NCBI GenBank assembly: GCA_018828125.1
Contig: JAHJWB010000006.1
Location: 186,001 to 250,000, forward strand
Direction: 5' to 3'
Length of the DNA stretch: 64,000 nt
Origin: Gammaproteobacteria bacterium
GTDB taxonomy: Bacteria > Pseudomonadota > Gammaproteobacteria > Burkholderiales > Burkholderiaceae_C
A program made the translations under genes and the position numbers. Positions within the stretch are counted from its first letter, which is position 1. Every line of letters starts with the position of its first letter. Of this stretch, positions 50,353 through 57,525 are shown in pieces. Below the pieces are notes generated by a model that was not told the DNA's origin, made no database searches, and worked only from the letters and a program-made list of their open reading frames with translations.

Positions 50353-50437
<85 letters not shown>

Positions 50438-50624: not shown

Positions 50625-50709
<85 letters not shown>

Positions 50710-54676: not shown

Positions 54677-55522
54677 ATGACAGCGTCAGGAAAAATAGTC
54701 TCCGGCGTGCGGACCTTCGTGGCCGACGTTACCGAAGGTTTTCTTGAAATCACCCACAACAGCTTTGCCCTCATCGGGCTGGCCGTTGCCTTTGCCGTAA
54801 TTGCGCTCACCGCCCGTCCCGACCTGCGTCAGGCCGGCGAGGAACAATTAATGGACTGGCTGCGTGCGCGGCAGGTCCAGATGCTGGGCATGTCGGTTGA
54901 GCCTGAAGCCAGCGAGCGCGCGACGGCGGCCAACCCGAAGGATCTGCCCAAGGAACAGGCCGCTGTGACCTTCTGGCTCAGCAAGAAGTACCGCGTGGCT
55001 CCCGAGCCGTTGAGCGTTCTGGTTGCCGAGGCCTACGACATTGGCGCCCGCGCCAAGATCGACCCCACGTTGATCCTGGCCATCATGGCCATTGAATCGA
55101 GTTTCAACCCATTTGCGCAAAGCTCTGTAGGCGCTCAAGGTCTCATGCAGGTGATGACGCGCGTGCATACGGACAAGTACCAAAGCTTTGGGGGCCATTT
55201 CGCCGCCTTTGACCCGGTGAGCAACCTGCGCGTTGGTGTCAAGGTGCTGCAAGAGTGCATCGCACGCGCTGGCTCGGTGGAAGGCGGGCTGCGCTACTAC
55301 GTGGGCGCTGCCAATCTGCCCGACGATGGGGGCTACGCTGCCAAAGTGCTGGCTGAACATTTTCGGCTGCGCCAAGTGGCCGGTGGCCGGGCGATGCCCA
55401 CCAACCCTCCGCCTACGCTGTCAACACAAGCACCAATTCAGGTGGTTCCTGTGATGACGCCTACAACACCCTCGGCGCCTTCCGCCGCGGCAGACAAAGT
55501 GGCCTTGCTCTCCGGTCTGTGA
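54677..55522 (+). CDS. Lytic transglycosylase (SLT domain), membrane-anchored
   Basis: 281 residues from the ATG at 54677, preceded by AAGGAAGAG. One membrane segment near residues 30-50 (FALIGLAVAFAVIALTA) anchors it. The SLT domain has the catalytic Glu in ILAIMAIESSFNPFAQSS, then VGAQGLMQVM and the NLRVGVKVLQECI motif. A Pro/Thr/Ala-rich tail ends it. Cuts peptidoglycan in the periplasm. It has its own strong promoter. Confidence 0.9.
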   Translation: MTASGKIVSGVRTFVADVTEGFLEITHNSFALIGLAVAFAVIALTARPDLRQAGEEQLMDWLRARQVQMLGMSVEPEASERATAANPKDLPKEQAAVTFWLSKKYRVAPEPLSVLVAEAYDIGARAKIDPTLILAIMAIESSFNPFAQSSVGAQGLMQVMTRVHTDKYQSFGGHFAAFDPVSNLRVGVKVLQECIARAGSVEGGLRYYVGAANLPDDGGYAAKVLAEHFRLRQVAGGRAMPTNPPPTLSTQAPIQVVPVMTPTTPSAPSAAADKVALLSGL

Positions 55523-55617
55523 CTCGGGCCTGGGATTCGTGTTTGGCACCAATACACGGTGCCGGGTGGGTCAAAGCATATTGCCGTCGACAGCGGCCTG
55601 TTTCCGTCAGCTACACT

Positions 55618-55766
55618 AAGCGGGTACGCAACTGGCGATAGGCGCGGCACCCCGCAACAGGGTGTCGCCGCTGACGTGGAAACCGGCAAGGGCTTGCCTC
55701 TTGTGAACCACTGGGGAGCGTGCCGCAAGGGTCACCACCTTCGCGTTCAGCCGTTCGCCTGGGCAG
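55618..55766 (+). promoter_or_regulatory. ZTP riboswitch (pfl motif) upstream of glyA
   Basis: Hallmarks in order: GGGTACGCAACTGGCGAT (55622 onward), GTGGAAACC, GTGAACCACTGGGGAGCG, a variable linker, and the closing CGCCTGGGCA (to 55765). An extra hairpin is inserted after the first block and another (GGCAA-GGGC-TTGCC) inside P2. The element senses ZTP/ZMP, which build up when 10-formyl-THF is short, and is known upstream of one-carbon genes including glyA. GGCAGCCCT at its 3' edge (55762-55770) is complementary, 8 of 9, to AGGACTGCC covering the glyA ribosome binding site (55794-55802), giving a ready translation switch. Confidence 0.85.
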
Positions 55767-55806
55767 CCCTTGTTTCAAGGGACACAAGTTCATAGGACTG
55801 CCAATC

Positions 55807-57051
<1,245 letters not shown>

Positions 57052-57075: not shown

Positions 57076-57525
57076 ATGAAGTGCCCCTTCTGCAGCCACC
57101 TCGAAACGCAAGTTGTTGAAACACGGGTGTCTGAGGATGGGGTCTTCATCCGCCGCCGCCGCCAGTGCGGTGCGTGCGAAAAGCGCTTTACCACTTACGA
57201 GCGGCCAGAAGTCAGCTTCCCGGCCATCGTCAAGAAAGACGGACGACGCATTGAATACGACCGAGGCAAGCTGCTCGCCTCGTTCAACCTGGCGCTGCGC
57301 AAGCGCCCGGTCAGCACCGTTCAGATCGACAGCGCCATCGAGCGCATCGAAGAAAAGCTGCTCAACCTCGGTCAGCGTGAAGTGATCTCCAGCCGCATCG
57401 GCGAGCTGGTGATGCGCGAACTCAAGAAGCTCGACAAGGTGGCGTATATCCGCTTTGCCAGCGTGTACCGCAGCTTTGAAGACATCGACGACTTCCGCGC
57501 GATGGTTGATGAAGTGCGCAAATAG
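57076..57525 (+). CDS. nrdR: Ribonucleotide reductase repressor NrdR
   Basis: 149 residues. N-terminal zinc ribbon [24 protein letters not shown], then an ATP-cone domain ([19 protein letters not shown]). Binds NrdR boxes before nrd genes in response to ATP/dATP. In an apparent operon with glyA, so also downstream of the ZTP switch. Confidence 0.97.

Follow-up and report, generated by a model that had tools for sequence, protein, structure and literature searches.

ZMP and ZTP are made when formyl-THF is short. The closest described relatives of the element analysed here are the glyA ZTP riboswitches of Herbaspirillum seropedicae, where one is reported (PMC7011215), and of Cupriavidus metallidurans, where expression from a pfl-glyA-lacZ operon fusion goes up with trimethoprim and a sulfonamide has no effect (PMC10882993). 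They share both the gene and the aptamer class with our locus; the available parts of the two texts describe neither a ribosome-site lock nor the hairpin that we call P4. By analogy, the trimethoprim response fits an ON switch under folate stress; being obtained with an operon fusion, it does not show translational control. Descriptions of pfl RNAs and of their association with glyA go back to 2010, and glyA is among the five genes most commonly linked to them (PMC2864571, available text). Mechanistically, the closest comparisons are the Clostridium beijerinckii pfl and Fusobacterium ulcerans ZTP switches, in which, going by the available text, a ligand-stabilised aptamer is set against a downstream strand, much as we propose here (PMC10085676, PMC13273304, PMC7484762). 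In those two systems the invading strand forms a terminator. At our locus the ribosome-binding site itself would be the invader, and a search for terminator-like sites finds none. The mechanistic ZTP papers cited deal, in the parts available, with transcription-terminating examples, and a 2026 covariation study began its ZTP platform models from terminator-predicted sequences (PMC13273304, available text). A search for a translational ZTP platform at glyA brought up no paper among the matches listed, as judged from titles and the starts of abstracts, and a prior description is possible.

The window, by which we mean the whole 64,000-nucleotide stretch of DNA analysed, carries one such element. 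It matches all positions (1-86) of RF01750, the ZMP/ZTP riboswitch model, and scores 44.5 bits in the cmscan search (E 0.0005 over the 64 kb), where the gathering score is 39; no second match at E 0.001 or better is found elsewhere in the genome. A ZTP riboswitch had been proposed from the letters alone, with a covariance model search named as the check, and this search bears the proposal out. The conserved sequence blocks on which the proposal rested are where it placed them and are intact. The gene downstream is a one-carbon gene, as expected of the class; glyA, as the sequence-only reading had it, begins immediately 3' of the riboswitch. The coordinates are collected in Table 1. Elsewhere in the window, two tRNA-Leu (CAG) genes lie about 190 bases apart at 50353-50437 and 50625-50709; they have identical scores and alignments against the tRNA model.

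Table 1. Features of the glyA leader and neighbouring genes, in window positions.
Feature	Position	Strand	Basis or remark
ZMP/ZTP riboswitch aptamer	55618..55771	+	RF01750, cmscan 44.5 bits
P1 5' strand	55620..55629	+	3' strand 55718-55726; RF01750 alignment, one pair flagged non-standard
GGCG, candidate pseudoknot strand	55634..55637	+	four G-C pairs possible with CGCC 55756-55759
Insertion with hairpin, between ACTGGCG and P2	55638..55675	+	38 nt; stem about 55641-55672; -19.8 kcal/mol alone
P2 and loop	55676..55711	+	GUGG 55676-55679 with CCAC 55708-55711; RF01750 alignment, pairs checked
P3 core	55750..55764	+	GCC 55750-55752 with GGC 55762-55764; CGCC 55756-55759 in loop
GGCAGCCCT, P3 3' strand and following bases; candidate anti-Shine-Dalgarno strand	55762..55770	+	
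P4 hairpin CCCTTG-TTT-CAAGGG, adjoining P3	55767..55781	+	covariation of arms
Weak local hairpin AGTTC-ATA-GGACT, covering Shine-Dalgarno bases	55787..55799	+	minimum-energy folds; -1.2 kcal/mol alone
AGGACTGCC, Shine-Dalgarno AGGA (55794-55797) and CTGCC, partner of GGCAG	55794..55802	+	
glyA, serine hydroxymethyltransferase	55807..57051	+	ATG start, 414 aa; NF000586.1, 647.6 bits, cut-off 335; translation
nrdR, next gene 3' of glyA (context only)	57076..57525	+	TIGR00244, 184.4 bits, cut-off 124.65

P1, P2 and P3 agree with the RF01750 model, apart from the one P1 pair flagged as non-standard, and the pairs of P2 and P3 were checked individually. The candidate pseudoknot between GGCG and CGCC lies outside the covariance model; it is a feature of the class in published ZTP structures. 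One point of the sequence-only reading needs correction here. It had put the final GGCA of the aptamer into the pseudoknot, whereas the RF01750 alignment assigns GGC(A) to P3, as its 3' strand, and the pseudoknot would be made by the two strands just named. If P3 and the pseudoknot form together, as in published structures, the logic of the switch is unaffected. Where the consensus is short, the window aptamer has the insertion hairpin, placed between ACUGGCG and P2, and also a long loop on P2. The insertion had been noticed as an extra hairpin, and it is real. It is also common and typical within the window's family: in 121 of the 126 family leaders that could be parsed, the part from the GGCG block to GGGAGC folds into two hairpins (23 of the 149 could not, and an earlier, stricter parse took in only 24). 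By inspection, several aptamers of the order outside the family likewise have extra sequence at this site.

We propose, at a probability of about 0.7, that the glyA leader carries a ZMP/ZTP riboswitch with a translational expression platform in which the ligand turns glyA ON. With ligand bound, P3 and the pseudoknot would keep GGC (55762-55764) and P4 would take CCCTTG (55767-55772), leaving AGGA (55794-55797) usable and glyA ON. With no ligand, GGCAG, with or without the CCT that follows it, would pair with (AGGA)CTGCC over the Shine-Dalgarno sequence and spacer, and translation would be lowered. We infer that the ligand binds in this species, that the two states exclude each other in the real RNA, that the switch is of the ON type and that it acts on translation. 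The region 55350-55950 contains no terminator-like site, so translational ON control would be the best reading.

The family comparison rests on the following samples, all scored under strict filters by which weak matches are lost. Of the 200 family genomes, 158 have an RF01750 match at E 0.001 or better, counting the one that holds the window, and 131 exceed the cut-off. In the order sample the count is 17 of 200 genomes, four of them from the window's family, and in the class sample it is 1 of 185, namely the window's genome. The 158 matched genomes gave 150 places among the matches listed, the window's own included. From these we took 149 leaders, the window plus 148 loci, leaving out L001, which duplicates the window's locus, and one that met a contig end and had no glyA motif (L061). 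In each leader the glyA start was set at the nearest in-frame ATG 81-99 bases before a conserved GlyA motif. Among the 42 family genomes that gave no match, 38 have a glyA-like match; 30 of these loci were taken and 28 used, L160 and L178 being dropped for want of a readable leader. Both ACTGGCG and CGCCTGGG are present in 19 of these 28 leaders, neither in 8, and one of the two in L168, which was kept out of the aptamer count. Leaders with both motifs in genomes that gave no RF01750 match include L151-L155, L157-L159, L161-L167 and others, which means that the family search undercounts. Taken together with the 158 matched genomes, they make the riboswitch a usual trait of glyA in the family. 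The leaders lacking both motifs (L156, L169, L170, L172, L174, L177, L179, L180), in a family that mostly bears the riboswitch, are apparent losses. Thirty-three stretches of named genomes contain an exact copy of a 27-base piece of the leader, and 30 of these carry Acidovorax or Paracidovorax in their titles. The window element is a real and, for its family, ordinary ZTP riboswitch.

The proposed lock begins with the complementarity, pointed out by the sequence-only reading and recovered at the same positions, between GGCAGCCCT and AGGACTGCC. Eight of the nine positions pair over the Shine-Dalgarno sequence, the exception being C55767 opposite A55797. This relation between the 3' end of the aptamer and the ribosome-binding site is kept widely: GGGCAG and CTGCC are both present in 103 of the 149 leaders, the pair being missing in the other 46. 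In 105 of the 149, CTGCC stands no more than 16 nt from the glyA ATG, and 200 shuffles of the leaders gave a mean of 4.1 and a maximum of 11. When each leader's P3 3' five-mer is taken individually, its reverse complement occurs among the last 16 nt in 105 of the 149 as well, where 3.0 are expected. In 78 of 149 the Shine-Dalgarno sequence is joined to CTGCC, as RGGACTGCC, directly before the glyA start. Besides the shuffled leaders, the glyA leaders free of the aptamer served as a control for this enrichment: CTGCC occurs in 120 of the 168 leaders with aptamer motifs (the 149 and the 19 recovered) and in 0 of the 8 without, and L168, with its single motif, nevertheless has it. A plausible translational platform, common to most of the family, accompanies the window's riboswitch. 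Some leaders (L034, L045, L048, L067, L077, L080 and similar) have no obvious Shine-Dalgarno sequence and carry AACCCTAGA or AACCCTTGA near the glyA start; by inspection, leaders sharing one of these shortly before the start mostly do not have CTGCC.

A55765 is kept in 134 of the 149 leaders, 125 of which have A or C opposite it in P3, and this conservation despite the mismatch fits a role outside P3. However, the 10 aptamers of other families that were examined all have it too, including three with no exact downstream partner, so its conservation may be a trait of the aptamer and not of the lock.

On comparison of the leaders, P4 is the best supported part of the putative platform. It had been described beforehand as a short hairpin competing for the same bases; the hairpin is there, and it turns out to be a conserved, covarying element, which the earlier description did not convey. 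Counting G-U pairs, 123 of the 149 leaders have a stem of at least 5 pairs with no gap that starts at its position; in 120 of the 149 the stem score is above the shuffled mean. The arms pair at -10.0 kcal/mol with their own partners and at -7.6 kcal/mol when partners are exchanged between leaders (z -14, 0 of 5000 permutations, a test that ignores relatedness). P4 starts after the GGC of P3 and so can coexist with P3. Its position makes it compete with the CCT:AGG part of the lock, while GGCAG:CTGCC alone is compatible with it; with P4 intact, this shorter pairing would still mask the spacer that precedes the start codon.

P4 is also where control of transcription would have to be sought. The aptamer might act through Rho or through a weak terminator near P4, with the GGCAG/CTGCC complementarity being secondary. 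P4 covaries strongly and sits directly 3' of P3, which is the terminator's place in transcriptional ZTP switches, and pfl RNAs are stated to overlap predicted terminators frequently (PMC2864571, available text). An intrinsic terminator at P4 was considered and rejected, because P4 is followed by ACACAAG with no U run and none of the terminator-like sites sought in 55350-55950 was found. The other families of the order bear on the same question. Thirteen matches of the order sample fall outside the window's family, and the 10 with loci were examined. Seven of these have a reverse complement of the P3 3' strand 25-50 nt downstream, before the start-codon region, where 1.45 are expected. In six of the loci (L181, L182, L184, L185, L188, L189) a CTGCC complementary to GGGCAG lies 27-50 nt downstream and not at the start codon. 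The corresponding pair in L190 is GGCAT and ATGCC, and L183, L186 and L187 have no exact downstream match to the P3 3' strand. This arrangement lends something to the transcriptional alternative, whereas in the window's family the usual partner of GGCAG is at the start codon, and P4, beginning after the GGC of P3, is compatible with P3. With the missing U run and terminator-like sites, these points leave transcriptional control unlikely in our judgement. What the ten loci suggest is that a P3-invading strand is widespread and that its place differs between families. We would tentatively go further. In the window's family the P3 invader CTGCC may have come to lie in the spacer between the Shine-Dalgarno sequence and glyA, the covarying P4 holding the rest of the anti-Shine-Dalgarno strand, and in the other families GGCTGCC would lie in an upstream hairpin at a distance from the start codon, so that the output would have been changed by moving a five-base invader; we regard this as possible and would not lean on it.

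The proposed translational lock is less well served by covariation, which had been set in advance as a test of the two pairing segments and which proved nearly absent. The pair is mostly invariant. Exchanging partners across all leaders changes the duplex energy from -12.0 kcal/mol (own) to -11.5 (exchanged), a small effect at p 0.0004. Compensated variants occur in two leaders, as GGCAC/GTGCC in L039 and GGCCG/CGGCC in L127. Among the 46 leaders that lack the canonical pair, the own partner is not favoured (-7.5 kcal/mol, against -7.8 when exchanged, p 0.87). Of the 24 leaders in which AG does not follow GGC, 2 keep complementarity in the last 16 nt, where 0.6 are expected. With 4 to 7 supported independent pairs, a test on the tree had too few branches and did not reach significance. 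Most of the family keeps the candidate lock, which is linked to the aptamer but hardly covaries.

Folding energies give a similarly qualified picture. The calculations have pseudoknots and ligand outside their model. The minimum-energy fold of the free leader contains neither P3 nor the lock, which says little because of the missing pseudoknots. With P1 and P2 enforced, the ensemble stands at -77.5 kcal/mol, with probabilities of 0.29 for the lock, 0.77 for P4 and 0.05 for P3. Under the same constraint the five-pair lock comes to -76.6 kcal/mol (a cost of 0.9), the eight-pair lock to -75.4, and P3 with the pseudoknot bases left free, given no ligand or pseudoknot energy, to -74.5 (a cost of 3.0). 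From the costs of 0.9 and 3.0 kcal/mol it follows that ligand could tip the balance; in this model, ligand and pseudoknot together would have to contribute about 2 kcal/mol beyond the five-pair lock. When the ligand-bound model is enforced, 55795-55797 are still mostly paired locally (unpaired 0.04-0.11), the local hairpin being lengthened by two bases of P1, taken from its outer end, where pairing had not been imposed. In the isolated 3' segment the window's Shine-Dalgarno sequence is unpaired with a mean probability of 0.54. The modelled energies allow the lock and do not prove it.

In another account the riboswitch is real, but CTGCC would be kept because it helps initiation, binds an RNA-binding partner or the like, and P4 with a local hairpin (e.g. 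55787-55799) would govern access to the ribosome site. Such a hairpin does appear in the folds, and the Shine-Dalgarno sequence is predicted to be less accessible than with shuffled upstream bases in 63 of the 78 RGGACTGCC leaders (means 0.34 and 0.45); the deviating leaders' indifference to their own partner points the same way. In the window, however, that hairpin is worth very little by itself (Table 1). CTGCC, moreover, is absent from the aptamer-free leaders and tracks GGCAG: it is present in 118 of 142 leaders that have AG after GGC and in 2 of 26 that do not, a comparison that ignores relatedness. We think this account improbable. That the aptamer has decayed and regulation has been lost, as the modest score and the 42 of 200 family genomes giving no match might hint, is very improbable, given that the conserved blocks are intact, that CGCCTGGGCAGCCC lies upstream of the shared leader piece in 32 of the 33 named loci, and that a low score alone does not mean loss when both motifs persist in 19 of 28 leaders from genomes with no match.

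The translational switch at glyA thus stays our preferred reading. Its novelty is modest. If it is true, the lock would offer clear tests by compensatory mutation, and a conserved translational version in a large family would be the natural comparison for the terminating switches, one aptamer being read out in two ways. The response of glyA, and hence of the supply of one-carbon units, to folate shortage in the window's family would also be accounted for.
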